This document shows positions 8,526 through 24,462 of a DNA stretch of 64,000 nucleotides, piece after piece. The first letter of the stretch is position 1; each line of letters begins with the position of its first letter. This DNA comes from Amycolatopsis jejuensis (GTDB lineage: Bacteria > Actinomycetota > Actinomycetes > Mycobacteriales > Pseudonocardiaceae), in NCBI RefSeq assembly GCF_000717335.1, contig NZ_JNYZ01000007.1, positions 186,001 through 250,000 of the forward strand. Direction: 5' to 3'. Position numbers and translations under genes: made by a program. The notes under the pieces were generated by a model. It did not search any database and had not been told where the DNA came from. It saw only the letters and a list, made by a program, of their open reading frames with translations.

Positions 8526-10910
8526 TCACAGCCCCTCGAACGCCCCCGTGACCGCCTTCGCAAGCCGGTCCCCCCGAGCGGACTGCCCGGACGGCACCGT
8601 GATGCACACCGTGAACCGATCCGCCCACATCATGATCCCGACCGCAACCGGCACCCCGGGCGCGAGCGACAACACCGGATAAACCGTCCGCACCAGCGCA
8701 CCATTCAGAATCACCGGCGAACGCGCACCCGGCAGCACCGAAGCAATCGCGCTGAACCAAGTCCCCCGGTACACCAGCCGCGCGAGCCGGTGGTGCAGCC
8801 ACGGCGGCAGCACCCCCAGCACCCGCACCACAGCATTCCCCGCGCGCGGCGCGCCACGGCCGACCTGGTCGGTCAGCATGCGGTCGGTCGCCTGCACCCG
8901 CGCGGCCAGCGGCATCGACCCGGTGGGCAGGTCGACCGACGCGGCCCCGGTGTGGTTGCCGAGCTGCCGGAACGTACCCGTGTCCCGCACGGACATCGGG
9001 ATGAGCACGCGCAGCCGGTCCGGCGCGTGTTCGCCGAGTTCCTGGTGCAACGCCTCGGCGACGAGTGCGAGGACGAGATTCGTGGTGGGTACCCCGGCCG
9101 CCCGCGCCGCCGCCCGGACGTCGGCGGCGGCGAGGTGCGCGCGCGAGAAATGCCGCTGCGGACCGTCGATCCGCGTCTCCCACTGCACCCGCGGCGCTAC
9201 CCCGGCCTTGGCCAGCGCCCAGACCCCACGCGCCAGCTCGGTGGCCTGGCCGCGGGCCCCCGCAGCATCCGACGACCGGGCCCGCAACCGCTCCACCACC
9301 CCACGGCGGCGCGGAACCGGCGGCGGGATCAGCGCTTCCTTCCCCCGAGCCTGTCCCACCAACGCACTGATCACCGCGATCCCGTCACTCGCCGCATGGT
9401 GCAACGCGATCAGCAGCGCGCCCTGCCCACCCGCGATGCCGGTGACCAGCCGGGCCCGCACCGGATGTTCCGGCGACACCGGGACCGAGAAGAACTCGTC
9501 CATCTCGCGGGTCAGCGCGGTGTCGAGATCGGCGTCCGGACCGGCGTCGACGTCCGTCAGCATCTCCGTCACCGTGCGCGCCGGGTCTTCCTGCCACCGC
9601 GCGCGCCACAGGCCGCTGCCCGGGAGCAGGCGGGTGCGCAGGCCGGGCGTTGCCGACAGCAGATGCTCCGCGTCGAAGCGGGTGACGGCAGAGCCGTCTG
9701 CCTTGGGGCTGAACAACAACACCGCACCGACCTGCTGCGGCACCTCCGGGGTGGCCACGTGCACGAACAGCGCGTCCTCCGGCCGGAGCCGCCGGGTCGG
9801 CGGGTTACGCGGACCGTAGACGAGCGATTCCAGCGCCGTCACGATCGGCGTTGCGGTGTCGCCGTGCCGGGCCGCGGCTTCCGACATCTCCTTCAGCCGG
9901 TCCGGTTCGGACAGCAGACCCCTTACCGCAGCGGCCAGCTCACCGTCCTTCTCGGTCATGATGGTGAGACCGGCCGCCTCCATCACCTCGGCACTGGCCC
10001 GGCCGTGCGCCGCGATCGCGCGATGGATCAAGACCGGACGTCCGCAAGCCAGCGACTCCATCGCGGTGATGCCGCCGTTGTTGGTGACCACCACGTCGGC
10101 GGCGAGCGTGTACTGCTCCGGCTCGTCGGTCCAGCCGACCACGCGCACGCGCGGTTCGTGCAGCGCCTGCAACCGGTCGGCGAGCCCCTTGTTCCGCCCG
10201 CAGATCGCGACCGGCACCACCGACGGGTCCGCGCCAAGCAGCTCCTTCACCGCCTGCTCGACCGCGCCGAACCCGAAGGAGCCACACGAAACGAGCACGA
10301 CGAACGCGTCCAGCGGAAGGTCGAGATGGTGCCGGGCGGCTGCCTGGTCCCCCGGCCGGAACTCGGCCCGCACCGGCGGCGCGGACACCCCGACGTGCGC
10401 GGCCGGGGCGGGACCCAGCGCCTGGTCGACCGCGATCTCGTGCATCACCATCGTGAGGTCGGCCGAGCCGTACACCCAGAACGGGTGCGGCGCGAAGTCC
10501 GGGACCCAGGCCCCGATCGGCGCGGCGAGCTTGCCGTGGCGGCGCAGCCAGGCCAGCCCGGCGGTGGCCATCGGGTACGTCGACAGCACGAGGTCGGGCG
10601 CGAACGCCGCGACCGGGCGGGCCAGCCGCCGCCCGCACCACGTCCCCACCACCCAGCGCGACGCCGCGGTGAACCACGCGATCCGCCACAGCGCGGCGTA
10701 GAAGAACTCGTACAGCCACGGCGTGGTCTCGATGTTCGCCACGTAGATCCGCCGGAACAACGGCGCGATCCCGGGCCCGAGCCGGTCGAGGACGTCGATC
10801 CACTCGACGGCCGCATCCGGCCATCGCTCGCGCACCGCCGCCTCGAGTGCCCGGCCCGCCGCATGGTGCCCCTGCCCCATGTTCGCCGAGACGATCAGCA
10901 CGCGCTCCAC
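8526..10910 (-). CDS. Glycosyltransferase (MGDG-synthase-like) fused to WS/DGAT acyltransferase
   Basis: A 794-aa two-domain enzyme. Residues 1 to about 365 are a GT28-type glycosyltransferase: the N-terminal SANMGQGHHAAGRAL (8-22) matches the MGDG synthase motif, and NNGGITAMESLACGRPVL (277-294) is the UDP-sugar-binding C-terminal lobe. From about residue 375 to the end is a wax ester synthase/diacylglycerol acyltransferase domain, beginning with the PEDALFVHVATPEVPQQVG substrate-entry region and carrying the catalytic HHAASDG (504-510, HHxxxDG). Both active sites look intact. The enzyme would be suited to glycosylating a lipid alcohol and acylating it, or to making and esterifying a glycolipid (inference). 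It ends 1 nt from the DUF427 stop; a DMT-type membrane protein gene precedes it by 15 nt and is probably in the same operon. Confidence 0.88.
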   Translation of the reverse strand: MERVLIVSANMGQGHHAAGRALEAAVRERWPDAAVEWIDVLDRLGPGIAPLFRRIYVANIETTPWLYEFFYAALWRIAWFTAASRWVVGTWCGRRLARPVAAFAPDLVLSTYPMATAGLAWLRRHGKLAAPIGAWVPDFAPHPFWVYGSADLTMVMHEIAVDQALGPAPAAHVGVSAPPVRAEFRPGDQAAARHHLDLPLDAFVVLVSCGSFGFGAVEQAVKELLGADPSVVPVAICGRNKGLADRLQALHEPRVRVVGWTDEPEQYTLAADVVVTNNGGITAMESLACGRPVLIHRAIAAHGRASAEVMEAAGLTIMTEKDGELAAAVRGLLSEPDRLKEMSEAAARHGDTATPIVTALESLVYGPRNPPTRRLRPEDALFVHVATPEVPQQVGAVLLFSPKADGSAVTRFDAEHLLSATPGLRTRLLPGSGLWRARWQEDPARTVTEMLTDVDAGPDADLDTALTREMDEFFSVPVSPEHPVRARLVTGIAGGQGALLIALHHAASDGIAVISALVGQARGKEALIPPPVPRRRGVVERLRARSSDAAGARGQATELARGVWALAKAGVAPRVQWETRIDGPQRHFSRAHLAAADVRAAARAAGVPTTNLVLALVAEALHQELGEHAPDRLRVLIPMSVRDTGTFRQLGNHTGAASVDLPTGSMPLAARVQATDRMLTDQVGRGAPRAGNAVVRVLGVLPPWLHHRLARLVYRGTWFSAIASVLPGARSPVILNGALVRTVYPVLSLAPGVPVAVGIMMWADRFTVCITVPSGQSARGDRLAKAVTGAFEGL

Positions 10911-10925: not shown

Positions 10926-11897
10926 CTAGTACGTGGATCCGGCCAGGCCGTAGCCGTCGTCCGGATCCGAGCCCCGCCGTTTTTCCCCAGTTTGCCCGGT
11001 TTCCGGCTTTTCTTCCGTTTCTGCCGACAAATGCGACGCCCGCGTGGACATCATCGCGATGCCCACCACGATCACCAGCCCGGCCAGCGCCTCACCGAAG
11101 AGCGCGAGCGGGCGCCCGTCGGCCGACTCCCCCATCCACGACAGCCCGATTGCGACCCCGACCAGCGGGTCGAGCGCGGTGATGACGGCGAGCGCGGGCG
11201 TGAGGAACCGGCCCTGCTGGAACGTGTTCTGGCTCAGCAGGAAACCGAGCGGCCCGATCACGCACACGAGGTACAGCGTCCAGTGCCGGAACGGTTCGTC
11301 GATCCCGGTCCGGAACTGGCTCGCGACCACCTTCATCAGGCCCGCGGTGAGGCCGTACAGGACACCGGTGGCGACCGCCAGCCCGAGCACCCGCAGCGAC
11401 CCGGAGCTGGTGAACGCGGCGAGCCCGAGCGCGAGCGCGGTGAGCACCGCCAGCGCGATCCCCAGCGGCAGCAGTGAAGCGCCGCTCACCAGCGTGTCGC
11501 TGTTGCCGCTCGGCCGGGCGATGACCAGGAACGCCGCGAGCCCGGCCATGCACAGCAGGCCGCCCGCGCTCATCACGCGGTCCGGACGGCGCCGCTCGAG
11601 CCGCGCGGACACGAACCCGGCGAACATCAGCGAGGTCACCAGCAGGGGCTGGACCAGCAGCAACGGCCCGTACGCGAGCGCGACGAGCTGCAGGACGAGA
11701 CCCAGCACCGTCGCCGCGACGCCGATGAGCCACAATGGGCGTCCGACAAGCCGCTTGAAAAGCGTGAGGTCGAGAGGCTTGCCGGTTTCGACCTCTTTGG
11801 TCGCCCTTGCCTGCGCAGCGCTCGCAATGCCCATGCACGCCGCGCCGGCGACGGCGGCGGGAACGGCCACGAACAGCGACACCCCCGTGACTGTCAT
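10926..11897 (-). CDS. DMT-superfamily (EamA/NIPA-like) membrane protein
   Basis: A 323-aa protein with nine to ten hydrophobic segments. An N-terminal helix (GVSLFVAVPAAVAGAACMGIASAAQ) is followed by the inverted-repeat helices of drug/metabolite transporters, including LLLVQPLLVTSLMFAGFVSARL, the NIPA-like 'QPLLV' region. The last ~45 residues are a charged, Glu/Gly/Asp-rich cytosolic tail (EEKPETGQTGEKRRGSDPD). It sits 15 nt upstream of the glycosyltransferase-WS/DGAT gene on the same strand, so the two are probably co-expressed. A role in moving a lipid precursor or product is only a guess from that context. Confidence 0.85.
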   Translation of the reverse strand: MTVTGVSLFVAVPAAVAGAACMGIASAAQARATKEVETGKPLDLTLFKRLVGRPLWLIGVAATVLGLVLQLVALAYGPLLLVQPLLVTSLMFAGFVSARLERRRPDRVMSAGGLLCMAGLAAFLVIARPSGNSDTLVSGASLLPLGIALAVLTALALGLAAFTSSGSLRVLGLAVATGVLYGLTAGLMKVVASQFRTGIDEPFRHWTLYLVCVIGPLGFLLSQNTFQQGRFLTPALAVITALDPLVGVAIGLSWMGESADGRPLALFGEALAGLVIVVGIAMMSTRASHLSAETEEKPETGQTGEKRRGSDPDDGYGLAGSTY

Positions 11898-12001
11898 GGA
11901 ATCTTCACCTCACACCATTCCCATCCGCCGTGCTTATGCTGTGAACTTGCCGAGAAGAGCCGTGGGGGCGGTCGAGAAGTCCCGGAGGTAGCTGAACCCG
12001 C

Positions 12002-12667
12002 ATGCGACACCACCTCACGATCGACCTCCCCTCGTTCCGCAATCTCGTGGTCGGCGGAGGCCGGCACCTGCTGGAGTCGACACTGGTCCCGGCCGGCCTC
12101 TTCTATCTCCTCCTGACCCTGGTGAGCTTCGACAGCGGGGTCATCGCCGCGCTCTGCTGGTCGGTGACCGTGCTCGTGACACGGCTGGTGCTGCGCAAGC
12201 CGATCCCCGCGGTGCTGCTGCTGACCACCGTGCTGCTGGTCGCGCGCACCGCACTGGGACTGGCCACCGGCAGCGCTTTTCTGTACTTTCTCCAGCCGAC
12301 CTTACAGAATTTCGTGGTCGCGAGCCTGTTTCTCGTGTCCGCGCCGTTCAACAAACCGCTGCTCGCGCGCCTGGCGGGCGATTTCTGCTCGTTTCCGGAC
12401 AGTCTGTCCGGCCATCCCGGCATGCGGCGGTTCTTCCAGCGCGTGTCGCTGCTGTGGGCGCTCGTGTTCGCGGTGAACGGCTCGGTGACGCTGCTGATGC
12501 TCGCGAAAGCCACCGTCGGCAACTTCCTCATGGTGAGCACCGCCGGTTCGTACACCGTGATCGCGCTCGCCATCGGCGGCTCGCTGTGGTGGTTCCGCCG
12601 TTCGCTGCGCTCGGCAGGCATCACGCTGCGCATGGGCCACCGCCCGGCCGCGCTGCCCGTCGCCTGA
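12002..12667 (+). CDS. VC0807-like integral membrane protein
   Basis: A 221-aa protein with about six membrane segments (for example LLESTLVPAGLFYLLLTLVSFDSGVIAALCWSVTVLVTRLVL and SLLWALVFAVNGSVTLLMLA). It is typical of the intracellular septation/VC0807 group of small membrane proteins, whose function is unknown. The conserved-looking soluble loop is FCSFPDSLSGHPGMRRFFQR. Its stop overlaps the ATG of the next SDR gene (TGATG), so the two are translationally coupled. ATG 12002 is about 12 nt after a GGAGGT site. It is divergent from the DMT-type gene. Confidence 0.8.
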   Translation: MRHHLTIDLPSFRNLVVGGGRHLLESTLVPAGLFYLLLTLVSFDSGVIAALCWSVTVLVTRLVLRKPIPAVLLLTTVLLVARTALGLATGSAFLYFLQPTLQNFVVASLFLVSAPFNKPLLARLAGDFCSFPDSLSGHPGMRRFFQRVSLLWALVFAVNGSVTLLMLAKATVGNFLMVSTAGSYTVIALAIGGSLWWFRRSLRSAGITLRMGHRPAALPVA

Positions 12668-13416
12668 TGCCCCGCACCGCGCTCGTCACCGGCGCCTCGT
12701 CCGGGATCGGCGCCGCCACCGCGCGCCTGCTCGCCCGCTCCGGCATCCACGTGCTGCTGCACGGCCGCGACAAGGACCGGCTCACCGCGCTCGCCGCGGA
12801 AACCGGCGGCACCGTGGTTCCCGCCGACCTCGCCGAGCCGGGCGCCGCCGCCGAGCTCGCCACTCGCGCGCTCGAAATCACCGGATCGGTGGACCTGCTC
12901 GTGAACAACGCCGGTGTCGGCTGGGCCGGTCCCCTGCCGGAGCTGTCCGGGGAACGGCTGCGGCACCTGGTCGCGGTGAACCTCACCGCGCCGCTCGAAC
13001 TGACCCGCGCCCTGCTGCCCTCGATGCTTTCCCAGCACAGCGGCCAAATCGTGTTCGTGTCTTCGATTGCCGGACGCACTGGCGTTGCGGGAGAAGCGGT
13101 GTACGCCGCCACCAAGTCCGGTGTGGACGCTTTCGCCGACAGTCTCCGGTTCGAACTGCACGGCACCGGCGTGACAGTCGGCGTGGTCGTACCCGGTGTG
13201 GTGCGCACGGAATTCTTCGAACGCCGCGGCCGCGCGTACACCCGCAGCACGCCCCGGCCGGTGAGCGCCGAGCGCGTGGCAGCCGCGGTGGTGCGCGCCG
13301 CCGGGCATCCGGGTGACTACTACGTGCCGCGCTGGCTGCGGATTCCCGTTGCCCTGCGCGGTGCGGTGCCCGGCGCGTACCGCGCGCTCGCGACGCGCTT
13401 CGGCGCCGAAAGCTGA
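12667..13416 (+). CDS. Short-chain dehydrogenase/reductase
   Basis: A 249-aa classical SDR: TGASSGIG cofactor motif at residues 8-15, NNAG in the middle, and the catalytic Tyr146/Lys150 of YAATK preceded by VSSIAG with its Ser. The C-terminal segment (YYVPRWLRIPVALRGAVPGAYRALATRF) is hydrophobic and may associate with membrane lipid. It is an NAD(P)-dependent oxidoreductase of unknown substrate. ATG 12667 overlaps the VC0807-like stop by 1 nt. With the lipid-acyltransferase fusion nearby, a lipid alcohol or ketone is a reasonable but unproven substrate. Confidence 0.9.
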   Translation: MPRTALVTGASSGIGAATARLLARSGIHVLLHGRDKDRLTALAAETGGTVVPADLAEPGAAAELATRALEITGSVDLLVNNAGVGWAGPLPELSGERLRHLVAVNLTAPLELTRALLPSMLSQHSGQIVFVSSIAGRTGVAGEAVYAATKSGVDAFADSLRFELHGTGVTVGVVVPGVVRTEFFERRGRAYTRSTPRPVSAERVAAAVVRAAGHPGDYYVPRWLRIPVALRGAVPGAYRALATRFGAES

Positions 13417-13507
13417 TCGGTCCACACCGCTTTCTCCCCCTTCGTCCATCTTTGCCGCCCCCAACCTAGAACTCCCAACCACCTGCCGCATCAGGGATAT
13501 TCCCCGA

Positions 13508-14704
13508 TCAGCCGGAAGCGCCGTGTTCCCCGGGCGGTCCCCAGGCCAGCGCGAGCAGCAACGTGGCGCGGGCGGACGGGTCGTCGAGCGAAGGTCCGAA
13601 GAGCTCGTGCAGGCGGCCGAGCCGGTACGACACCGTCTGCGGATGGATGTGCAGATCCTCGGCCACCGCCTTGCGGTCGCCCAGGTGCAGCAGCCAGGAC
13701 CGCAGCGTGGTGGAGAGCCGTTCCCGCGCCGACTCGTTCAGCTCGTCGAGCGGGGCCAGCGCCTGTCTTCGCAGCACGTCCAGCAGCCGGTCGTCGCGGT
13801 GCACGATGATCGCGTCGAGGTGCTCGTCGGCGAACACCGGATCGTCGCTCAGCAGGTGGTCCCGCCGCAGCCGCGCGGTGACCTCGGCGATCCGGAGGCT
13901 GGCCGGCAGCCGGTCGACCGGCACCGACGCGCCGACCACCGCACCGCCGCCGCGCAGCGCGCGGGCCAGCCACGCACGCCGTCCGGGACCACCCGGATCG
14001 GGCACGATCGCCACCACCACGCCGGGACGGCGCAGCCGCAGGCAGTTGTCGTCGAGCCGGAAAACCAGTTCCCGGCCCAGCTCGTTGTCCTCCTCCACCA
14101 GCACCACGGCGGCCTGCCGCGGCAATCGCCACTCCGCCCGCAGCGCGGCCGCGTTCACCGCCGCCATGTCGGCGCGATCGGACAGCAGCAGCGCGGTGAG
14201 CTCGTCGCGCAACCGGTCTCGCGCGCGGGTCGCGTCGGACTGCTCCTGCAGGTACCCGCGCAGCGACGATTCCGAAAGCTGGTCCACGAGAGCGAACACC
14301 GTGGTGGCCAGCGAAGCGAACAGCTCGGCAGGGACGTCGAGGTCGAGTGCGGCTTCCGAAACGTGCCGCCACGCCACGCGGGCCCCCACCCGATAAGCGG
14401 ACAGCAGGCTCGTGACCCGCCGCCCCTGCCGGTACTGGGTACGCCCGATTTCCTCGAACACCACCTGCTCGACGCCGGAACCGAACTCCGGCAGCCGCTC
14501 GTCCGGTTCCGCAGCGACGTCGATGAGCCGGCGCACGAACCCCGCGCTGGCCGTGACGATGTCGGCGAGCTCCTCGGTCAGGAACTCCGCGTAGTCGGGA
14601 TGGTCTTCCACCAGCTGGTCGCGGACCTCGTTGAGAATGGCGGGCAGCCGCCGGGTCACGACGGTCTCCAGTTCGTCCAGCCGGGTCACCTGATCGGGTT
14701 TCAT
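13508..14704 (-). CDS. PucR/CdaR-type transcriptional regulator
   Basis: A 398-aa regulator. The C-terminus carries the PucR helix-turn-helix: LGDRKAVAEDLHIHPQTVSYRLGRLHELFG, about residues 340-370. Upstream is a degenerate GGDEF-like region, and the N-terminal half is helical (VVFEEIGRTQYRQGRRVTSLLSAYRVGARVAW), which is common in actinobacterial regulators of this group. I chose ATG 14704 (MKPDQVTRLDELE) because the longer frame from 14869 would overlap the hpnC start and begins with low-quality sequence. Its divergent position directly before hpnC makes it the obvious candidate regulator of the hopanoid operon, though nothing in the sequence proves this. Confidence 0.87.
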   Translation of the reverse strand: MKPDQVTRLDELETVVTRRLPAILNEVRDQLVEDHPDYAEFLTEELADIVTASAGFVRRLIDVAAEPDERLPEFGSGVEQVVFEEIGRTQYRQGRRVTSLLSAYRVGARVAWRHVSEAALDLDVPAELFASLATTVFALVDQLSESSLRGYLQEQSDATRARDRLRDELTALLLSDRADMAAVNAAALRAEWRLPRQAAVVLVEEDNELGRELVFRLDDNCLRLRRPGVVVAIVPDPGGPGRRAWLARALRGGGAVVGASVPVDRLPASLRIAEVTARLRRDHLLSDDPVFADEHLDAIIVHRDDRLLDVLRRQALAPLDELNESARERLSTTLRSWLLHLGDRKAVAEDLHIHPQTVSYRLGRLHELFGPSLDDPSARATLLLALAWGPPGEHGASG

Positions 14705-14856
14705 CGGTCCGGGAGTCCTTCCTTCGCAGGCAGCAGTGCGCGGGTCCGCCTCGGAACATCCTGACCCCACTTTGTCGTCTCGTGCCAAGTCGAAGCCAGC
14801 GAAATTCATCTTCCGGCGGCAGAAGACGCCCGACCGGGGGCGCGACACTGGTTTCG

Positions 14857-15723
14857 ATGAGATCCACATCGGCTGTCCGTCACGCTCCGGATACGGGCGG
14901 TCTGCGGGAGAAGCGGCACGCGGAGAACTTCCCGGTGGCCCTGCGGGTGCTGCCGGGGAGGCTGCGGGCCGACCTCGTCGCGGTCTACGCCGTCGCGCGG
15001 ACCGTCGACGACCTCGGCGACGAAGCCGAGGGCGACCGGGTCGCGCAGCTGGAAAAATTCTCCGCCGAGCTGTCCGCTGCTTTCGGCGGTGGCACCCCGG
15101 AAGACGCTGCAGTACGTGGGCTGCTGCCCGCCATCCGCGGCGGGCGGGTCACCGAGGAACCGTTCCAGCGGCTCGTGCAGGCGAACCTCCAGGACCAGCG
15201 GGTGCACCGCTACGCGACGTTCGCCGACCTGCACGCGTACTGCCGGCTTTCCGCGGATCCGGTGGGCCGCATCGTGCTCGGTCTGCTCGACGTCCACGAC
15301 CCGGCCGCCGGGGAGCTGTCCGACCGGATCTGCACCGGGCTCCAGCTGGTGGAGCACTGGCAGGACGTCGGCGAGGACTACCGCGCGGGGCGGGTGTACC
15401 TGCCGCAGGAGGATCTCGCGGAATTCGGGGTGCCCGAGGAGGAACTGGGGGCGGCGCACGCGGCACCCCGGGTGAGAGAGCTGATGCGGTGGGAAACCGG
15501 CCGCGCCGCCGCCCTCCTGGGCAGCGGCGCGGACTTGGTCGGCCTCCTGTCCGGATGGGGACGGCTCGCGGTGAGCGGGTTCCTCGCCGGCGGGCTCGCG
15601 GCGGTCGACGCGCTGCGGGCGAGCGGGGGCGACGTGCTGTCCGAACCGGTCCGGCCGAGCCGGGCCGGAATGCTGGGTTGGTTGTGCTGGCTGCAGGTGG
15701 GCACTGGGAGGCGGTCCGGATGA
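14857..15723 (+). CDS. hpnC: Hydroxysqualene synthase HpnC
   Basis: A 288-aa member of the squalene/phytoene synthase family. It starts LREKRHAENFPVALRVLPGRL and contains both aspartate-rich motifs: VDDLGDE near residue 50 and DVGEDY in QLVEHWQDVGEDYRAGRVYLPQEDL. In the HpnCDE route HpnC hydrates presqualene diphosphate to hydroxysqualene. It is the first gene of the operon and overlaps hpnD (ATG inside the HpnC stop). ATG 14857 (MRSTSAVRH) is preferred over the frame from 14782, whose extra 25 residues are Arg/Ser/Gly-rich and unlike the family. Confidence 0.93.
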   Translation: MRSTSAVRHAPDTGGLREKRHAENFPVALRVLPGRLRADLVAVYAVARTVDDLGDEAEGDRVAQLEKFSAELSAAFGGGTPEDAAVRGLLPAIRGGRVTEEPFQRLVQANLQDQRVHRYATFADLHAYCRLSADPVGRIVLGLLDVHDPAAGELSDRICTGLQLVEHWQDVGEDYRAGRVYLPQEDLAEFGVPEEELGAAHAAPRVRELMRWETGRAAALLGSGADLVGLLSGWGRLAVSGFLAGGLAAVDALRASGGDVLSEPVRPSRAGMLGWLCWLQVGTGRRSG

Positions 15724-16580
15724 CGACGGTCGATGAGGCGTACGCGCACACCGCGGAGGTCACGAAAACGCAGGCGCGCAACTTCTATTACGGGATCCGG
15801 TTGCTGCCCCCGGACAAGCGCTCGGCGCTGTGTGCGGTGTACGCGCTGGCCCGGATCATCGACGACATCGGCGACGACACCGAGGCGTCCGCCGAGACGA
15901 AGCTGCACGGCCTCGCCGGAGTGCGCAAATCGCTCGGTGACCTGTCGGCGAGCACCGACCCGGTGTACGTCGCGGTGGCCGACGCGGCTCGCCGGTACCC
16001 GATTCCGCTGGGCGCGTTCGAGGAACTGCTCGACGGCGTCGAGATGGACGTGACCGGGCGCGAGTACGTGCGGTTCGAGGATCTGGTCGAGTACTGCCGT
16101 TGTGTCGCGGGTTCGGTCGGGCGGCTGTGTCTCGGGGTGTTCGGCAGCAAACCCGAGCCGCACGCCCCGGTGTACGCCGACGAGCTCGGGATCGCCTTGC
16201 AGCAGACCAACATCCTCCGCGACATCCGCGAGGACCTGCTCAACGGGCGGGTGTATCTGCCCAAGGAGGATCTCGACCGGTTCGGCGTGGAGCTGTCTGT
16301 GGGCGAGGACGGGAAACTGGCCGACCCCGAGGGCGGGCTCACCGCGCTGATCCACGACAGCGCTGCGCGAGCCCGTGACTGGTACTCGCGCGGGTTGCGG
16401 CTGGTGCCCTCTTTGGACGGTCGCAGTGCGGCGTGCTGCACAGCGATGTCGGGGATCTACCGCACTTTGCTGGACCGGATCGACGAGCAGCCCTCGCTCG
16501 TGTTCGACCGCCGGCTTTCCTTGTCCGGCCGGGAAAAGGCGGTGGTGGCGTTTCGGGCGCTGACCGGGATCGGGCGATGA
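15720..16580 (+). CDS. hpnD: Presqualene diphosphate synthase HpnD
   Basis: A 286-aa trans-isoprenyl synthase that condenses two farnesyl diphosphates to presqualene diphosphate. It has the first Asp motif in ARIIDDIGDD and the second in NILRDIREDLLNGRVYLPKEDL, plus YCRCVAGSVGRLCLGVFG, all typical of HpnD. The ATG lies inside the hpnC stop (ATGA) and its own stop overlaps the hpnE ATG (GATGACT), so the synthases are translated in a coupled row. It is cytosolic or peripheral to the membrane. Confidence 0.94.
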   Translation: MTTVDEAYAHTAEVTKTQARNFYYGIRLLPPDKRSALCAVYALARIIDDIGDDTEASAETKLHGLAGVRKSLGDLSASTDPVYVAVADAARRYPIPLGAFEELLDGVEMDVTGREYVRFEDLVEYCRCVAGSVGRLCLGVFGSKPEPHAPVYADELGIALQQTNILRDIREDLLNGRVYLPKEDLDRFGVELSVGEDGKLADPEGGLTALIHDSAARARDWYSRGLRLVPSLDGRSAACCTAMSGIYRTLLDRIDEQPSLVFDRRLSLSGREKAVVAFRALTGIGR

Positions 16581-17941
16581 CTGTGTCAGCTGGATCGGCC
16601 GGGCCCGTTGCGGTGGTCGGGGGCGGGCTCGCGGGGATCGCCACCGCACTTGCCTGCGCCGACGCCGGTCGCGAGGTCACGCTGTTCGAGGCACGGCCGC
16701 ATCTGGGCGGGCTCACGCATTCGTTCACCCGCGGCGAGCTGCATGTCGACAATGGACAGCACGTGTTCCTCCGCTGCTGCACGGCATATCGCGCACTGCT
16801 CGAGCGGCTGGGCGTGGCCGATCGGGTACTTCTGCAGCCCCGCTTGGAAATCCCGATCCGCACCCCGGGCGCAGCCGAGTCGACCTGGTTGCGCCGCGGC
16901 GATCTGCCCGCCCCGCTGCACCTGGCCGGTTCGCTGCTGCGGTACGAGCCGCTGCGTCCGCTTGACCGGGCGCGGTTCGCGCTCGCCGCGCTGGCGCTGC
17001 GCCGGGTCGACCCGGCCGCGGACCACACTGACCGGCAGTCGTTCGGGGAATGGCTGCGCAGGCACGGGCAGAGTGCGGCGGCGATCGAAGCGCTGTGGGA
17101 CCTGGTCGGGGTGGCCACGCTCAATGCGACGGCCGACGACGCGTCGCTGAGCCTTGCCGCCACGGTGTTCCAGGAGGGCCTGCTCACCGATCCGGCCGCG
17201 GCCGACATCGGCTGGTCGCTGGTCCCGTTGCGGGAGCTGCACGGCGAACCGGCGCGGGAACGGCTGGCCGAGGCCGGCGCCGAGGTCCGCACCGGCACCA
17301 AGGTGCGAGCGGTCAGCGAGGGCTGGAAGGTGAGCACCGACGACGGCGAGGAAAGGTTCGGGCAGGTCGTGCTCGCCACGCCGCCGCCGGTCACGGAGCA
17401 GCTCGCGCCCGCGGGGGCGATCCGGCTCACGCCGGGCTGGTCCGGCGGGCTGGGCAGCTCGCCGATCGTCAACGTGCACGTGGTGCTCGACCGGCACGTG
17501 CTCGACGAACCGTTCGTCGCCGGGGTCCGCACGCCGGTGCAGTGGGTGTTCGACCGGACGCGGCAGTCCGGTCTGGACTCCGGGCAGTACCTGGCGATGT
17601 CGTTGTCGGCGGCGGACGCGGAGATCGACCTGCCCACCGCGAAACTGCGCGAACGGCTGCTGCCCGAGCTGACGTCGCTGCTGCCCGAGGCGCGCGGTGC
17701 ACAGGTAAGGGATTTCTTCGTCACCCGCGAGCGGCATGCGACGTTCCGGCCTGGTCCGGGGACTGCGTCGCTGCGCCCGTCCGCGATCACCGCCGCGCCC
17801 GGGCTGTACCTGGCCGGTGCGTGGACCGCCACCGGCTGGCCCGCGACGATGGAGGGCGCCGCGCGCAGTGGTGCTGCCGCCGCGGCTGCCCTCCTGCAGC
17901 AGAACGTGCCCGGGAAGAAAGAGGAGGGAGTGGGAGCATGA
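16577..17941 (+). CDS. hpnE: Hydroxysqualene dehydroxylase HpnE
   Basis: A 454-aa FAD-dependent amine-oxidase/phytoene-desaturase family protein. The N-terminal Rossmann motif is VVGGGLAGIATALACADAGREVTLFEA, followed by GGLTHSF and DNGQHVFLRCC, the HpnE-type substrate region. The C-terminal FAD contact is PGLYLAGAWTATGWPATMEGAARSG. HpnE reduces hydroxysqualene to squalene, completing the three-step HpnCDE alternative to classical squalene synthase. Start and stop both overlap their neighbours by 4 nt. Confidence 0.94.
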   Translation: MTVSAGSAGPVAVVGGGLAGIATALACADAGREVTLFEARPHLGGLTHSFTRGELHVDNGQHVFLRCCTAYRALLERLGVADRVLLQPRLEIPIRTPGAAESTWLRRGDLPAPLHLAGSLLRYEPLRPLDRARFALAALALRRVDPAADHTDRQSFGEWLRRHGQSAAAIEALWDLVGVATLNATADDASLSLAATVFQEGLLTDPAAADIGWSLVPLRELHGEPARERLAEAGAEVRTGTKVRAVSEGWKVSTDDGEERFGQVVLATPPPVTEQLAPAGAIRLTPGWSGGLGSSPIVNVHVVLDRHVLDEPFVAGVRTPVQWVFDRTRQSGLDSGQYLAMSLSAADAEIDLPTAKLRERLLPELTSLLPEARGAQVRDFFVTRERHATFRPGPGTASLRPSAITAAPGLYLAGAWTATGWPATMEGAARSGAAAAAALLQQNVPGKKEEGVGA

Positions 17942-19002
17942 CCGCCGACGTATTTTCTACCGCGGAGGTGGCATCGGATACCGCGACAGTGCGTGCGGCG
18001 GCGGTACCGGAAATTCTCGGCCGGACCCGCGATCTGGTGCAGCCTGCGTTGCGGGCGGCCGTCGACCGGCTGGACGAGGGCAGCCGCGCGATCAGCGCGT
18101 ACCACCTGGGGTGGACCGACGCGAATGGCGTTCCCACCGACGGAAACGGCGGCAAGGCCGTACGGTCGGCGCTGGCCGTGGTGTCCGCGCAGGCTGCCGG
18201 GGCGTCCGCGGAAATGGGCGTACCCGGCGCGGTCGCCGTGGAGCTGGTACACAATTTCTCGCTCGTCCACGACGATTTGATGGACGGTGACACCGAACGC
18301 CGCCACCGCCCGACGGTGTGGACGCTCTGGGGTGCCGCGAACGCGATCCTCACCGGCGACGCGATGCTCGCGCTGGCCCAGGAAGTGGTGCTGGACAGTG
18401 GTTCCCCTCATGCGATACCCGCCGGGCGGCTGCTGGCCGAGACCACGCGACGGCTGATTCACGGCCAGGTCCTGGACGTCTCGTTCGAACAGCGCGACGA
18501 CGTCACGCTCACCGAATGCGTCACGATGGCCGGGGGCAAAACCGGCGCGTTGCTGTCCGGGAGTGCCGCGATCGGGGCCGTGCTTGCCGGAGCACCGCCC
18601 GAGGTGGTCGACGCGCTCGCGCTGTTCGGCGAGGAGATCGGGCTGGCGTTCCAGCTGGTCGACGACGTGCTCGGGATCTGGGGCGACCCGGTGGTCACCG
18701 GCAAACCGGTGTACTCCGATCTGCGGGCCCGCAAGAAGTCGCTGCCGATCACGTACGCGACCTCACGGGGTGGCACGGCGGGGCGGGAACTCGCCGCCTG
18801 GCTTGCCGGGCAGGACTCCGGGGACGACGCCGATCTCGCCCGGGTGGCCGCGCTGGTCGAGTCCGCGGGCGGCCGCGAATGGGCCGTCGCCGAAGCTGCC
18901 CGCCGGGTGGCCACCGCCGAGCAGGCGCTGTCGGCGATCCCGCCGGGTCCGCGCGCCGATCTCGTGGCCATCGCCCGATTCATCGCCGGAAGGGAAGCGT
19001 GA
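17938..19002 (+). CDS. Polyprenyl diphosphate synthase of the hopanoid operon
   Basis: A 354-aa all-helical prenyltransferase that probably makes the farnesyl diphosphate used by HpnD. The first Asp-rich motif is VHDDLMDGDTERRHRPTVW and the second QLVDDVLGIWGDP (the typical DDxxD is replaced by DDVLG, as is common in actinobacterial members). The chain-length-determining region before the first motif is FS (HNFSLVHDD). The ATG overlaps the hpnE stop and the TGA overlaps the shc ATG. The operon position, as in Streptomyces hopanoid clusters, supports the assignment; the exact product length is inferred. Confidence 0.9.
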   Translation: MTADVFSTAEVASDTATVRAAAVPEILGRTRDLVQPALRAAVDRLDEGSRAISAYHLGWTDANGVPTDGNGGKAVRSALAVVSAQAAGASAEMGVPGAVAVELVHNFSLVHDDLMDGDTERRHRPTVWTLWGAANAILTGDAMLALAQEVVLDSGSPHAIPAGRLLAETTRRLIHGQVLDVSFEQRDDVTLTECVTMAGGKTGALLSGSAAIGAVLAGAPPEVVDALALFGEEIGLAFQLVDDVLGIWGDPVVTGKPVYSDLRARKKSLPITYATSRGGTAGRELAAWLAGQDSGDDADLARVAALVESAGGREWAVAEAARRVATAEQALSAIPPGPRADLVAIARFIAGREA

Positions 19003-20897
19003 TGACCCAGACCGTGCCGCAACGGCTCACGGCCACCCCGCGCACCGCCGCCGACACCGTCGCCGCCGCGGTCGAGTTCCTGCGCCGCGAACAGGATCGC
19101 GCGGGCTGGTGGAAGGGCGAGCTGGCGACCAACGTCACGATGGACGCGGAAGACCTGCTGCTGCGCCATTTCCTCGGGATCCTCACGCCGCAGATCGCCG
19201 AGGAGTCGGCGCGCTGGATCCGTTCGCAGCAACGCGCCGACGGCACCTGGGCGAACTTCCCGGACGGCCCGGCCGACCTGTCGACCACCGTCGAGGCGTG
19301 GGTCGCGCTGCGGCTGGCCGGTGACCCGGCCGACGCGCCGTGGCTCACGCCGGCCGCGGAGTACATCCGGAGCCAGGGCGGTATCGAGGCGACGCGGGTG
19401 TTCACCCGGATCTGGCTTGCGATGGTGGGCCAGTGGTCGTGGGACGACCTGCCGAACATGCCGCCGGAAATGATCTTCCTGCCGTCGTGGTTCCCGCTCA
19501 ACGTCTACGATTTCGCGTGCTGGGCGCGGCAGACGATCGTGCCGCTCACCATCGTCGGCACGCTGCGCCCGGTACGGAAGCTGCCCTTCGACGTCGCCGA
19601 GTTGCGCACCGGCAAACGTCCGCCGAAGACGCGCACGCCGTGGACGTGGGACGGCGTCTTCGAGAACCTCGACACCGCGCTGCATGCGTACGCGAAACTG
19701 CCGTTCAACCCGGTCCGCAAGATCGCGATGAAACAGGCGGCGGAATGGATCCTGGCGCGGCAGGAGGCCGACGGGTCGTGGGGCGGGATCCAGCCGCCGT
19801 GGGTGTACTCGATTCTCGCGCTGCATCTGCTCGGCTACCCGCTCGACCATCCCGCGCTCAAGGCCGGGCTGGAAGGGCTGGAGGGCTTCACGATCCGGGA
19901 AAAGACCGAGCAGGGCTGGGTCCGGCGGCTCGAAGCGTGCCAATCTCCGGTGTGGGACACGGTATTGGCGATGACCGCACTGCTCGACGCCGGTGTCTCA
20001 CCTGGTGACGAGATGCTGGTGAAGGCCGCGGATTGGGTACTGGGCGAGGAAATCCGGGTACCCGGAGACTGGTCGGTGCGGCGGCCGTCGCTGCAGCCGG
20101 GCGGGTTCGCGTTCGAGTTCGCCAACGACGGTTACCCGGATACCGACGACACGGCCGAGGTCGTCCTTGCGTTGCGCCGCATGGGAAAGCCGGACCATCT
20201 GCGGCTGCGTGCGGCGATCGACCGTAGTGTGCAGTGGCTGGAGGGCATGCAGTCCAGCGACGGCGGGTGGGGTGCATTCGATGCGGACAACACCCAGGTA
20301 CTCGCAACGAAGCTGCCGTTCTGCGATTTCGGCGCGGTAATCGATCCGCCGTCGGCCGATGTCACCGCGCATGTCGTCGAAATGCTGGCTGCGGAAGGGA
20401 AAACCGGTACGCGGGAATGCCGTCGGGGGGTACAGTGGTTGCTGGACAATCAGGAGGAGGATGGCTCGTGGTTCGGCCGCTGGGGCGCGAACTACGTCTA
20501 CGGCACCGGGGCGGTGGTCCCGGCTCTGGTCGCGGCCGGAATTCCCGCCGGCGACAACCGGATCCGGCGAGCGGTGACGTGGCTCGCGGAACACCAGAAC
20601 ACGGACGGCGGCTGGGGCGAGGACCTGCGCTCGTACGACGATCCGGCATGGGCCGGACGCGGCGATTCGACCCCGTCGCAGACCGCGTGGGCGTTGCTGG
20701 CCCTGCTCGCCGCCGGGGAACGGGAGTCCGAGGTGGTCACCCGGGGAGTCGCGTGGCTGTGCGAACGCCAACGCCCGGACGGCGGCTGGGACGAGGAGAA
20801 GCACACGGGAACGGGCTTTCCGGGCGACTTCTATCTGTCGTACCACTTGTATCGGGTCGTGTTCCCGCTGTCGGCACTGGGGCGGTATGTGTCGTGA
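19002..20897 (+). CDS. shc: Squalene-hopene cyclase
   Basis: A 631-aa monotopic membrane cyclase that turns squalene into hopene and hopanol. The protonating acid motif DTDDTA has its Asp cluster at residues 380-383. Several QW repeats are visible (QQRADGTWANFPDG, QEADGSWGG, QSSDGGWGAFDADN, QNTDGGWGEDL, QRPDGGWDEE). The length is normal for the family. ATG 19002 overlaps the preceding stop. Its own TGA overlaps a GTG that opens the 153-codon repetitive frame (GTGA at 20894-20897), an unusual feature of this operon. Confidence 0.96.
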   Translation: MTQTVPQRLTATPRTAADTVAAAVEFLRREQDRAGWWKGELATNVTMDAEDLLLRHFLGILTPQIAEESARWIRSQQRADGTWANFPDGPADLSTTVEAWVALRLAGDPADAPWLTPAAEYIRSQGGIEATRVFTRIWLAMVGQWSWDDLPNMPPEMIFLPSWFPLNVYDFACWARQTIVPLTIVGTLRPVRKLPFDVAELRTGKRPPKTRTPWTWDGVFENLDTALHAYAKLPFNPVRKIAMKQAAEWILARQEADGSWGGIQPPWVYSILALHLLGYPLDHPALKAGLEGLEGFTIREKTEQGWVRRLEACQSPVWDTVLAMTALLDAGVSPGDEMLVKAADWVLGEEIRVPGDWSVRRPSLQPGGFAFEFANDGYPDTDDTAEVVLALRRMGKPDHLRLRAAIDRSVQWLEGMQSSDGGWGAFDADNTQVLATKLPFCDFGAVIDPPSADVTAHVVEMLAAEGKTGTRECRRGVQWLLDNQEEDGSWFGRWGANYVYGTGAVVPALVAAGIPAGDNRIRRAVTWLAEHQNTDGGWGEDLRSYDDPAWAGRGDSTPSQTAWALLALLAAGERESEVVTRGVAWLCERQRPDGGWDEEKHTGTGFPGDFYLSYHLYRVVFPLSALGRYVS

Positions 20898-21355
20898 CTG
20901 ACGTTGTGGGGTTGCCGGTGTCCGGGTCCTTGGCGGGTGATGGTGTGCGGGTGCGGGCCGGGCGCTCGTGCGCTACGACCACCGCTGCGAGGTCACTGTG
21001 GTCTGTGCCCGGGGCCGCCACCACGGTGCGGTGCGTGCTGCGCGCGCCCGGGGCCGCCGCCATCGCCGTGAGGTCACCGCTGACCGTGCTCGGGGCCGCC
21101 GCCACCACCACTTCGAAGCCTGCGCTGCCCATGCCCGGGTCCGCCACCACCGCAAGGCCACCGCTGACCGTGCCCGGGTCCACCGCCACCACCACTTCGA
21201 AGCCTGCGCTGACCGTGCCAGAATCCGCCGACACCACCACGAGGTCACCGCTAACCGCGCCCGGGGCCGCGATCACCGTGAGGTCTCCGCTGTCCGCACC
21301 CAGGGCCGCCACCACCGCGAAACCCCCATTGTCCGCACCCGGGTCCGTCTCATGA
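20894..21355 (+). CDS. Possible 153-aa repetitive protein between shc and hpnG
   Basis: A frame opens at GTG 20894 inside the shc stop (GTGA) and closes at TGA 21353-21355 inside the hpnG ATG (ATGA), repeating the coupling seen between every other pair in the operon. The product is Pro/Ala/Thr/Ser-rich and built of 13-15-residue units (for example TVPGSTATTTSKPALTV). I recognise no domain, signal or membrane segment. Alternatives are a non-coding repeat spacer, or a frame from GTG 20968 that would add an Arg/His-rich N-terminal extension to HpnG. The repeats keep several frames open, so frame length alone is poor evidence. The double overlap is the main argument. Confidence 0.4.
   Translation: MTDVVGLPVSGSLAGDGVRVRAGRSCATTTAARSLWSVPGAATTVRCVLRAPGAAAIAVRSPLTVLGAAATTTSKPALPMPGSATTARPPLTVPGSTATTTSKPALTVPESADTTTRSPLTAPGAAITVRSPLSAPRAATTAKPPLSAPGSVS
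20960..21350. repeat. Tandem repeats, ~42-nt units with an 84-nt super-unit
   Basis: Degenerate 39-45-nt units fill the shc-hpnG gap. Each carries variants of GGTCACCGCTGACCGTGCCC. A 27-nt segment beginning GCCACCACCACTTCGAAGCC recurs exactly at 21101 and 21185, 84 nt apart, showing duplication of a two-unit block. Unit lengths are multiples of three, so several reading frames stay open on both strands. Confidence 0.85.
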
Positions 21356-22818
21356 CCCCCGCCACTGTGTGCGTCCCGCTGCGGATCGAGCAAGCCGCCC
21401 TGCGTGGCCTGCGGACCGTCCACACCGGACTCGGGCCGCGCCGGGCCGCCGCCGCGGCAACCCGGCTTCCGTCCGGACCGCGGATCGTCGCGGGAATCGG
21501 CGGCGGCCTCATCCCGGACGTGCGGCCCGGTGACCTCGTGGTCGCCACCGAAGTACGCGGCCCGGACAGCGTGACTCCCGTTCCCTCGGCATCCCTCCTG
21601 GCAGGCTTCCTGCGCAGCCGGGGCCTGACTGTCCACACCGGACCGATCCACGGCAGCTCCCACGTCGTACCTGCACGGGAACGGGCTTCACTGGCCGAAA
21701 CCGGCGCGCTGGCGGTCGACATGGAGTCCCCGTGGCTGGCCGCGCCGGGGGAACCGTTCGCGGTCATCCGGGCCATTGTGGACACTGCCGGGGAACCGTT
21801 GGTCCATCCCGCGACTGTCGCGAATGGAATCGCCGGCCTGCGGAGCCTGCGACTCGCCCGGTCCGCGATCGCCGCCTGGGCGGAGGCGGTCCGGCCGCGG
21901 ACGGTGCTGCTGGCCAGCCCGCGGTCGTTCTGCGCTGGGGTCGAGCGGGCGATCGACATCGTCGAACGGGCGCTGGACAAGCACGGTCCGCCGGTGTACG
22001 TGCGACGCCAGATCGTGCACAACACCCACGTCGTACGCCGTCTCCAGGACCGCGGTGCGGTGTTCGTCGACGAGGTGACGGAAGTCCCGCAAGGCGCCAC
22101 GCTCGTGTTCGCCGCACACGGGGTCTCCCCCGCCGTCCGGCAGGACGCGGCCGGGCGCGGACTGTCCGTGATAGATGCAACGTGCCCGCTGGTCACCAAG
22201 GTGCACAACGAAGTCCGCCGCTACTCCGGCCGCGGGGACACGGTGTTCCTCATCGGACACGCCGAGCACGAGGAGGTGGAAGGCACGGTCGGGGAAGCGC
22301 CCGACGACGTCGTGGTGGTCGGCGACGTGGCAGCCGCGCGCACGGTCACCGCACGCGACGCATCGCGGGTCGCGTACACCATGCAGACCACGCTGGCGCT
22401 CGACGAAGCCGAGGAGATCGCGTCCGTGCTGCGCGAGCGGTTCCCCGGGCTTTCCGCGCCACGCAAGGACGACATCTGTTACGCCACCACCAACCGGCAG
22501 CGGGCCCTGCGTGCGATCGCGCGCGAAGTGGACCTGGTGCTGGTGGTGGGTTCGGGCAACTCGTCCAACTCGCGCCGGCTCGTGGAGGTGGCCGGGCGCG
22601 AGGGCACACCTGCCGTGCTGGTGGACGGGTGCGCCGACATCGACCTGCGCCGGCTCGCCGGGGCAGCCAGGATCGGCCTCACCGCGGGTGCGTCGGCGCC
22701 GCCGCACCTCGTGGACGAGGTGGTCGCCGCCCTGCGCGGGCTCGGACCGGTCACCGTCGCCGAAAGCCGGACGGCGGAAGAAGAAGTGACGTTCACTCTA
22801 CCTCGGGAGGTGCTCTGA
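21352..22818 (+). CDS. HpnG-IspH fusion: hopanoid phosphorylase plus HMBPP reductase
   Basis: A 488-aa two-domain protein. Residues 1 to about 180 are a nucleoside-phosphorylase-like HpnG domain (GIGGGLIPDVRPGDLVVATEVRG at 48-70 and VDMESPWLA at 122-130), which removes adenine from adenosylhopane. Residues ~184-488 are IspH, the last MEP-pathway enzyme. All three iron-sulfur cysteines are present (FCAGVERA Cys194, DATCPLVTKVH Cys278, DDICYATTNRQ Cys376), with VVHNTHV-like, AAHGVSP, GHAEHEEVEGT and SSNS active-site motifs. Both halves look active. ATG 21352 overlaps the preceding repetitive frame; hpnH follows after 3 nt. Joining supply of isoprenoid precursor with hopanoid side-chain processing is metabolically sensible, but it need not imply channelling. 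Confidence 0.92.
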   Translation: MTPATVCVPLRIEQAALRGLRTVHTGLGPRRAAAAATRLPSGPRIVAGIGGGLIPDVRPGDLVVATEVRGPDSVTPVPSASLLAGFLRSRGLTVHTGPIHGSSHVVPARERASLAETGALAVDMESPWLAAPGEPFAVIRAIVDTAGEPLVHPATVANGIAGLRSLRLARSAIAAWAEAVRPRTVLLASPRSFCAGVERAIDIVERALDKHGPPVYVRRQIVHNTHVVRRLQDRGAVFVDEVTEVPQGATLVFAAHGVSPAVRQDAAGRGLSVIDATCPLVTKVHNEVRRYSGRGDTVFLIGHAEHEEVEGTVGEAPDDVVVVGDVAAARTVTARDASRVAYTMQTTLALDEAEEIASVLRERFPGLSAPRKDDICYATTNRQRALRAIAREVDLVLVVGSGNSSNSRRLVEVAGREGTPAVLVDGCADIDLRRLAGAARIGLTAGASAPPHLVDEVVAALRGLGPVTVAESRTAEEEVTFTLPREVL

Positions 22819-22821
22819 GCC

Positions 22822-23823
22822 ATGGCCATGCCGTTGCGCCAGTCCATCCGGCTGGGCGGCTATCTGATGAAGCAGAAGCTGCGGCGTAAGGAAAAGTTCC
22901 CGCTGCTGGTCGAGCTGGAACCGCTGTTCGCCTGCAACCTCAAGTGCGGTGGCTGCGGCAAGATCGCCCAGCCGCACACGTTGCTGAAGCAGCGGATGCC
23001 GGTGGAACAGGCGGTCGGCGCGATCGAGGAAAGCGGCGCCCCGATGGTGTCGATCGCCGGCGGCGAACCCCTGATGCACCCGCAGATCGACGAGATCACC
23101 CGGCAGCTGCTCGACCGGAACAAGATCGTTTTCCTGTGCACGAATGCGTTGCTGCTGCACAAACACATCCACAAGTTCAAGCCGCACCGCAATTTCGCGT
23201 GGATGGTGCACATCGACGGCCTCGAAGAACGCCACGACGCCTCGGTCCGCAAGGAGGGCGGTTTCCAGGGCGCGGTCGACGCGATCAAGCTCGCGAAGGA
23301 AAAAGGTTTCCGGGTGATGACGAACACGACGTTCTTCACCGGGGACACCCCGCAGGACGTGATCGACGTGCTCGACTATCTCAACGACCTTGGCGTCGAC
23401 AACATGCAGATCTCGCCCGGGTACGCGTACGAGAAGGCACCGGACCAGGACCACTGGCTCGGCGTGCAGCAAACGAGGGAACTCTTCGCGAAAGCCTTCG
23501 GCGGCGGCAACCGGAAACGCTGGCGGCTCAACCATTCCCCGGTATTCCTCGATTTCCTCGAAGGAAAGCGCGACCTGGAATGCACGCCGTGGGGAATCCC
23601 GTCCTATTCACTGCTCGGCTGGCAACGCCCGTGCTACCTCCTCGACGACGGCTACACGAAAACGTACCGGGAACTCATCGAGACGACAGAATGGGAAAAC
23701 TTCGGCCGCGGCAAAGACCCGAGATGCGCCAACTGCATGGCACACTGCGGCTACGAGCCGACCGCAGTGATAGCGACGCTGGGTTCGTTGAAGGAATCAG
23801 TCCGAGCCGCAGTCGGGCACTGA
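22822..23823 (+). CDS. hpnH: Adenosylhopane-forming radical SAM enzyme HpnH
   Basis: A 333-aa radical SAM protein that joins a 5'-deoxyadenosyl radical to hopene to form adenosylhopane. The [4Fe-4S] motif is CNLKCGGC (Cys38, Cys42, Cys45), followed by the SAM-binding GGEP (VSIAGGEPLMHP). The C-terminal Cys-rich end (RCANCMAHCGYEP) and HpnH hallmarks such as RQSIRLGGYLMKQKLRRKEKFPLLVELEPLFACNL are all present. It is the last gene of the operon. No hpnO-type aminotransferase, ispG or dxs follows, unlike the Streptomyces clusters I recall. A strong terminator lies 12 nt beyond the stop. Confidence 0.96.
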   Translation: MAMPLRQSIRLGGYLMKQKLRRKEKFPLLVELEPLFACNLKCGGCGKIAQPHTLLKQRMPVEQAVGAIEESGAPMVSIAGGEPLMHPQIDEITRQLLDRNKIVFLCTNALLLHKHIHKFKPHRNFAWMVHIDGLEERHDASVRKEGGFQGAVDAIKLAKEKGFRVMTNTTFFTGDTPQDVIDVLDYLNDLGVDNMQISPGYAYEKAPDQDHWLGVQQTRELFAKAFGGGNRKRWRLNHSPVFLDFLEGKRDLECTPWGIPSYSLLGWQRPCYLLDDGYTKTYRELIETTEWENFGRGKDPRCANCMAHCGYEPTAVIATLGSLKESVRAAVGH

Positions 23824-23879: not shown

Positions 23880-24363
23880 GCCCCGGCTGGGGAGCTCAGC
23901 ATCGCACTCAAACGAGCCGAGCAATCACCACCGACCCAAGCAAGGTCAAGTGAGCGCCACGCACTCAAACGAGCCCGGACCATCACCACCCGCCCGAATG
24001 AGCCCGAGCGACCCCCACCCTCCCGCACCATCCCCCAAGGCGGAGCAGCCCAACCGAGCAGTTCACCACTACCCGCCAACCCAGCTCAACCCGTCGAAAG
24101 TCGGGAACCTTCCTTCCCTGCGAGCACATTCCCCCACCTACCCCCCGAGCCCGCCCCAACACCCCCCACGCCCGCACCCACTCGATAGTCCACTGTAGAC
24201 ATTCGAAGCCGAAGTCACCCCACCGGTAACCACGGAGCGTGCCCACCGCCCGCACCCGGCCACCCATCCAGCGCAAGACACCCGCCAAACGGTGACCGCA
24301 CGCATCCTCCACTCCTCATTCCCGTTGCCCGGTAACCACTTCACCCTCGTTCTTTGCCAGGCG
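23880..24363. other. Intergenic stretch without a recognisable gene
   Basis: C-rich, low-complexity sequence between the hpnH terminator and the LPMO promoter. Frames here have no family resemblance or ribosome site. A 15-nt direct repeat, GCACTCAAACGAGCC, occurs at 23904 and 23961. I see no RNA gene or mobile element. Confidence 0.6.
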
Positions 24364-24401
24364 TTGACCTTCCGCCCGCGACGGGAGTATGGTCTAGACC
24401 A
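24364..24401 (+). promoter_or_regulatory. LPMO promoter with overlapping DasR-type operator (dre)
   Basis: TTGACC (24364-24369) and TATGGT (24388-24393), 18 nt apart, form a plausible -35/-10 pair. TGGTCTAGACCA at 24390-24401 is a perfect 12-bp palindrome, identical to the core of the DasR-responsive element known from Streptomyces chitin and N-acetylglucosamine genes. It covers most of the -10 box, so a bound GntR-type DasR would block RNA polymerase. The flanks (TA.../...GA) diverge from the 16-bp consensus. DasR control of a chitin-oxidising enzyme fits the known regulon. Confidence 0.8.
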
Positions 24402-24441
24402 GAAATCCACCACCCCTTCGCTCGATCACTCTTCCGCGCGG

Positions 24442-24462
24442 ACCGGCTTCGGGGAAGCCGGT
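24442..24462 (+). promoter_or_regulatory. 5'-leader stem-loop of the LPMO mRNA
   Basis: ACCGGCTTC (24442-24450) and GAAGCCGGT (24454-24462) form a perfect 9-bp stem with a GGG loop, in the ~115-nt leader between the promoter and ATG 24517. It lacks a T-run and lies 42 nt before the ribosome site, so a stability or translation-tuning role is more likely than termination. Confidence 0.5.

Follow-up and report, generated by a model that had tools for sequence, protein, structure and literature searches.

The window analysed here, a stretch of 64,000 nucleotides from Amycolatopsis jejuensis (contig NZ_JNYZ01000007.1), encodes on its minus strand a protein of 794 amino acids (aa) with a GTG start (8526..10910), in which a GT-B glycosyltransferase (GT) half and an acyltransferase (AT) half with the fold of the wax-ester/diacylglycerol acyltransferases (WS/DGAT) share one frame. 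The two predicted domains have conserved catalytic motifs, and the gene shows conserved linkage to hopanoid genes and co-occurs with HpnH. Hopanoids are thus the probable target of the fusion, and an ordinary glycolipid or a storage fat is a less likely product. The MGDG-synthase-like GT half (residues 1-369, 9804..10910), assigned by Pfam, fold and alignment, matches MGDG_synth at residues 15-165 (45 bits, cut-off 25) and Glyco_tran_28_C at residues 204-349 (31 bits, cut-off 22). The AT half (residues 370-794, 8529..9803) matches WS_DGAT_C at residues 651-793 (36.7 bits, cut-off 20.7), and WS_DGAT_cat at residues 375-564 stays slightly under its Pfam cut-off (22.7 bits, cut-off 23.6). The AlphaFold2 model shows two confidently predicted domains (mean pLDDT 89.9, pTM 0.81); the GT half has a GT-B fold like that of MGD1, the AT half a WS/DGAT fold. 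The minus-strand open reading frame (ORF), the Pfam matches and the model bear out a previous sequence-only reading of the locus, which had described a GT28/MGDG-synthase-like and a WS/DGAT part in a single frame without a stop between them. The joint (residues 346-385) is free of stops and of ATG and contains three GTG codons.

Both active-site motifs referred to in that reading were located, and their key residues are invariant in an alignment of 40 rows comprising the window protein and 39 relatives. In the GT half these are G12, G14, H15, N277, G279, G280 and E285, which we take to represent a G-x-G-H motif and a donor-site GG...E motif. In the AT half, HHAASDG occupies residues 504-510, and H505, D509 and G510 do not vary. 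HHxxxD[G/A] is present in 119 of the 121 rows P0002-P0122 (exceptions P0093 and P0112), a range that counts the window twice and leaves out P0001, a nonsense translation. Among relatives the AT half is far more variable than the GT half. PLW and ND, named as WS/DGAT motifs in PMC4520822, are not kept in the window AT half, which has PVR and TN instead; these positions vary among relatives and are mostly not kept, PLW being retained in locus L036. Loss of the two motifs in most relatives would fit a different acceptor. The WS/DGAT subfamily profile TIGR02946 of NCBIfam was not reached by the fusion either (131.5 bits vs. cut-off 309.95). With PLW and ND not kept, and with scores too low for both the WS_DGAT_cat cut-off of Pfam and the NCBIfam cut-off, the earlier description of a complete WS/DGAT domain was too strong. 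A simple triacylglycerol or wax synthase is disfavoured by the motifs and by the missed NCBIfam cut-off.

Two alternative roles of the AT half have to be weighed against these data. The halves might do independent jobs, the GT half producing a hopanoid glycoside and the AT half a neutral lipid (triacylglycerol or wax ester), so that the fusion only co-localises them. The missing PLW and ND motifs, the low TIGR02946 score, the other WS/DGAT matches in the same genome, which are stronger than that of the fusion, and the AT-only genomes described below, which retain the AT in the hopanoid cluster, render this improbable. Alternatively, a non-catalytic AT half could bind the hopanoid or the membrane on behalf of the GT. 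Its much greater variability and the WS_DGAT_cat score under the cut-off would agree with such a role, but the three invariant residues, the near-constant HHxxxD[G/A] motif and the retention of the AT where the GT was lost make it quite improbable. In many Amycolatopsis fusions of about 870-1000 aa (L009:10001-12838 and others), the AT half contains a large insertion; it sits around residues 540-575 of the window protein, where matches to the latter break.

Profile searches of the window ORFs placed a hopanoid cluster on the plus strand at 12667-23823, beside the fusion. HpnC (14782..15723; TIGR03464, 272.4 bits, cut-off 250.45), HpnD (15720..16580 in an ORF that opens at 14736; TIGR03465, 280.9 bits, cut-off 278.6), HpnE (16433..17941; TIGR03467, 418.5 bits, cut-off 283.05), the squalene-hopene cyclase (SHC; 18318..20897, with the domain starting at about residue 241 of the ORF; TIGR01507, 755.1 bits, cut-off 431.1) and the adenosyl-hopene transferase HpnH (22822..23823; TIGR03470, 506.4 bits, cut-off 225.05) all score above their own cut-offs. 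A polyprenyl diphosphate synthase is recognised within an ORF that exceeds the gene (17050..19002; PF00348 at ORF residues 366-601), and an HpnG-like part and IspH occupy one open frame (21352..22818) in which HpnG misses its cut-off (75.7 vs. 187.1 bits). No stop interrupts this HpnG-IspH frame in any of the 34 loci where both parts could be placed; among these loci are several that overlap within one genome. Immediately upstream of the fusion and on its strand lies the gene of a DMT-family membrane protein (10926..11897; NF038012, 92.6 bits, cut-off 50), a candidate flippase that ends 15 bases before the fusion start codon, in line with the linkage noted in the sequence-only reading. The suspected lipid-modification locus therefore stands, in the form of a hopanoid cluster that had gone unseen, whereas the VC0807-like/SDR pair invoked for it does not. 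Its members correspond to a DUF3159 protein (12002-12667, plus strand) and an SDR oxidoreductase (12667..13416, plus strand, with 12667 as likely start and TGASSGIG, NNAG, Ser and YAATK intact), and the SDR goes with the hopanoid genes in relatives. A GbpA-like (N-acetylglucosamine-binding) protein (24292-25035, plus strand; 115.9 bits, under its cut-off) follows directly after the cluster.

The fusion is widespread in the family Pseudonocardiaceae and rare outside it. A protein search scored 7991 candidates, 270 of them at E ≤ 0.001, and all 120 listed matches, the window included, carry a GT and a WS/DGAT domain in precomputed Pfam assignments. Scanning of genome contigs yielded 36 loci, of which 29 encode the full fusion and seven, all from Amycolatopsis, only the GT (364-384 aa). 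Full fusions occur in 18 of 80 genomes of the genus Amycolatopsis, in 52 of 160 genomes and 17 of 46 genera of the family, and in one of 197 genomes sampled across the class, the latter being the window's own genome, which is the only family member among the matches of that sample. Genus and family were identified by the names given to the nearest proteins and loci. The fusion is thus no one-off within the family, rare as it is at class level, and since it recurs in many independent genomes, the frameshift or assembly artefact considered initially is excluded. No paper describing the fusion was found among the listed matches of full-text searches of open-licence PMC papers, in agreement with the earlier statement that the pairing is not a characterised enzyme.

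Linkage to hopanoid genes is conserved. A hopanoid gene lies within the available flanks in 25 of the 29 full-fusion loci; the genomes of the exceptions (L017, L028, L036 and L038) nonetheless encode an SHC over the cut-off. Such an SHC was found in 13 of 14 genomes checked; only the 2.4-Mb genome with L040 gave none, and the flank of that locus has HpnH. Outside Amycolatopsis, the genes typically run GT-AT, DMT and SDR, followed by convergent HpnH, IspH, HpnG, SHC, prenyl synthase, HpnE, HpnD and HpnC, an arrangement observed in loci that bear the names of Pseudonocardiaceae, Micromonospora, Propionibacteriales and Micrococcales genera. The DMT gene is present in 34 of the 36 loci (not found in L019 and L020; about 2 kb from the fusion and on the other strand in L036), and the SDR in 26 of the 29 full-fusion loci (not found in L028, L030 and L036).

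Co-occurrence points to a particular branch of the pathway. In the genus, the 18 genomes with the fusion are exactly the 18 with an SHC at E ≤ 2.3e-130; 25 further genomes have far weaker matches to the SHC Pfam family (best 4.6e-31) and were not counted. In the family, TIGR01507 matches at E ≤ 1e-60 occur in 68 genomes and exceed the cut-off in 65; 67 genomes were counted as having SHC after G121 (238 bits) was dropped and G140 and G201, with genes in two pieces, were retained. Fifty of the 52 fusion genomes belong to this set, the remaining two being G177 (93% complete) and G226 (87% complete, with HpnH). HpnH is found at E ≤ 1e-60 in 63 of the 160 genomes (62 over the cut-off and a fragment in G192), including all fusion genomes except G177 (51 of 52; Fisher p 6e-29, kinship and linkage ignored). 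The 12 HpnH genomes without the fusion comprise six of group g24, in which the AT stands alone near the cyclase, and six of group g26, in which a PAP2-AT protein lies beside HpnC. Conversely, three genomes with SHC and without HpnH (G167, G184 and G189) all lack the fusion; in the fragmented genomes G104 and G210, SHC alone was found. HpnH therefore fits better than SHC as the partner of the fusion, and since HpnH commits the pathway to C35 hopanoids, the fusion tracks the C35 side-chain pathway and not the cyclase alone. The same pattern bears on the idea that a carotenoid-like C30 isoprenoid from the same squalene-type genes is modified. Staphyloxanthin-type pigments offer a precedent, as a terpenoid is glycosylated and then acylated. 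The tie to HpnH and the scores of HpnC, HpnD and HpnE above hopanoid-specific cut-offs make this analogy very improbable here.

Natural separations of the two halves are informative. In group g24, which was likened to Saccharomonospora via P0129-P0132, a remnant of about 110 residues is all that is left of the GT, both G-x-G-H and the C-terminal GT domain being absent, whereas the AT retains HHALGDG or HHALADG and lies, by coordinates, at most about 4 kb from SHC in all six genomes. In the two g24 clusters inspected (L097 and L098), the AT directly precedes the SDR, the GT is gone from the locus, and no DMT gene was found in 20 kb. As the g24 AT is nested deep within the fusion ATs in the tree, the GT was lost secondarily. 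The reverse is seen in the GT-only Amycolatopsis loci, all seven of which retain GT and DMT elsewhere. In the tree, their GT clusters with the fused GTs of Amycolatopsis (99/99), which points to a probable loss of the AT from this protein. A related AT nevertheless lies beside HpnC in all 11 inspected hopanoid clusters of the GT-only group. These clusters are L069-L073 (from the genomes of five of the seven GT-only loci), L122-L125 (from all four GT-only g26 genomes) and L115 and L116 (from the two g26 genomes without a GT match); with L073, L116 and L123 about 96% alike, they are not all independent. Nine of the 11 have PAP2 joined to the AT in a single open frame; L071 and L072 yielded no PAP2. 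PAP2-AT proteins occur in other families, too (L170, L172/L177). These PAP2_3-WS/DGAT proteins (L069:2530-4524, L177:10954-12786, P0134 and P0135), several of which adjoin hopanoid genes, represent another, unexplained fusion type with a related AT. Finally, an unfused GT and DMT lie beside HpnC in L074, L176 and L179 (GT identity 35, 38 and 27%, respectively). GT plus DMT, AT, PAP2-AT and SDR thus appear to behave as modules of hopanoid clusters.

We consider it fairly probable that the fusion tailors C35 bacteriohopanepolyols with two activities, glycosylation and acylation. We infer the acceptor, the donors, the order of the steps, the flippase role, co-transcription and the activity of either half. 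The pathway beside the fusion would produce hopene through HpnC, HpnD, HpnE and SHC; HpnH would add adenosine, HpnG would remove adenine, and the SDR would probably reduce the ribosyl group to give bacteriohopanetetrol. The GT half could then use a nucleotide-sugar donor to glycosylate a hydroxyl group of the C35 polyol. The AT half could form an ester between a hopanoid hydroxyl and an acyl group supplied by acyl-CoA. Persistence of the AT in g24 after loss of the GT makes the hopanoid polyol a more likely acyl acceptor than the sugar. The DMT protein tends to accompany the GT and may thus carry, or flip, the glycosylated product. An acylated glycolipid made by one polypeptide had been suggested before. 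With a hopanoid cluster as the locus, a C35 bacteriohopanepolyol and not diacylglycerol is the expected acceptor.

If diacylglycerol were nevertheless glycosylated and the sugar or glycerol then acylated, the enzyme would yield an acylated glycosyl-diacylglycerol, with the hopanoid genes merely as neighbours. This option carries a small but appreciable probability. Among solved structures, those nearest to the GT half belong to diacylglycerol glycosyltransferases (9wde, E 4.7e-23; MGD1, 4wyi, E 6.6e-14), and the fusion matches the diglucosyl-diacylglycerol synthase equivalog NF010135, though at 116.7 bits far below the cut-off of 500. GT paralogues without SHC, described below, point the same way. 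A diacylglycerol acceptor would not predict that the fusion follows HpnH more closely than SHC, nor that hopanoid producers retain each half separately.

Several observations weigh against a dedicated role in hopanoid tailoring. Linkage and kinship inflate the co-occurrence statistics, and G177 has the fusion although neither HpnH nor SHC was found in this genome. Of the 48 HpnH genomes in the class sample, 47 are without the fusion, which is therefore at best one tailoring option among several. GT paralogues (35-39% identity) are present in eight Amycolatopsis genomes without a true SHC, indicating that such GTs also serve other lipids. In group g42, G134, G207 and G238 encode a GT of 41-42% identity but neither SHC nor HpnH; in G134 the DMT gene adjoins this diverged GT. 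The GT of the GT-only group is not near the hopanoid cluster. Among the unfused GTs beside HpnC, that of L074, the one included in the tree, groups weakly with the paralogues (88/61).

Known systems share single features with the proposed hopanoid-tailoring enzyme. HpnI of proteobacteria is a GT2-type enzyme and is followed by HpnK and HpnJ, whereas the window enzyme is a GT28/MGDG-type GT-B protein fused to an acyltransferase. According to a 2025 study (PMC12583986), HpnI makes a GlcNAc derivative of bacteriohopanetetrol and so, like our proposal, involves sugar transfer to bacteriohopanetetrol within hpn genes. MGD1 and UgtP-YpfP (GT28) have the fold and motifs of the window GT half but, by name, a diacylglycerol acceptor; the window GT stands in a hopanoid context and scores far below the diglucosyl-diacylglycerol cut-off. 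The WS/DGAT structures 6chj and 7nxg share fold and HHxxxDG with the AT half, which differs in its PLW and ND positions, its missed NCBIfam cut-off, its fusion to a GT and its place beside hopanoid genes. In the PAP2-WS/DGAT fusions of hopanoid clusters, a related AT half lies beside the same genes and an N-terminal PAP2_3 domain replaces the GT. The closest product is the N-acyl-glucosaminyl bacteriohopanetetrol of Alicyclobacillus acidocaldarius, as cited in a 2021 study (PMC8537080); it is both glycosylated and acylated but comes from Firmicutes and has the acyl group on an amino sugar.

Hopanoids are sterol-like membrane lipids of bacteria and serve as geological biomarkers. If correct, the proposal would extend hopanoid chemistry in Actinobacteria by a new branch; an acyl-glycosyl hopanoid is not known to have been described from this group. 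Intact acyl-hopanoids would escape methods that hydrolyse esters. We regard as tentative, and rather doubtful in its entirety, the wider combination of an acyl-glycosyl C35 hopanoid new in Actinobacteria, a dedicated DMT flippase, interchangeable modules (GT-AT, AT, PAP2-AT and GT plus DMT) and an SDR that is the missing ribosylhopane reductase.

The enzyme converting ribosylhopane to bacteriohopanetetrol "has not yet been established", in the words of the same 2025 study (PMC12583986). The window SDR adjoins HpnC at 9.4 kb from HpnH; in many relatives the distance to HpnH is less than 300 bases, and many hopanoid clusters of Actinobacteria, whether or not they have the fusion, place the SDR next to HpnH. 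Our survey covered 20 loci, none with the fusion, drawn from 18 of the 48 class-sample genomes that have HpnH. The SDR lies at most 100 bases from HpnH in five of them (L159, L160, L162, L169 and L171) and 1.7-2.7 kb away in two (L172 and L174); in the other 13 no SDR was found, L163 and L170 having HpnH at most about 2 kb from a contig end. In L156, one of three SDR-less loci of one genus, a class III aminotransferase follows IspG and DXS. Strict mutual exclusion of the SDR and such an HpnO-like aminotransferase was rejected, since L171 has both. In view of this survey, the cluster SDR is a candidate ribosylhopane reductase and no more. Two of the surveyed genomes (G333 and G301; L164-L167) have two HpnH genes each, one of them away from the hopanoid cluster. 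In L165, a GT2-type glycosyltransferase (11179-13035, plus strand) is separated from HpnH by the length of two genes; the cluster lacks the fusion, and the enzyme is possibly another hopanoid glycosyltransferase.
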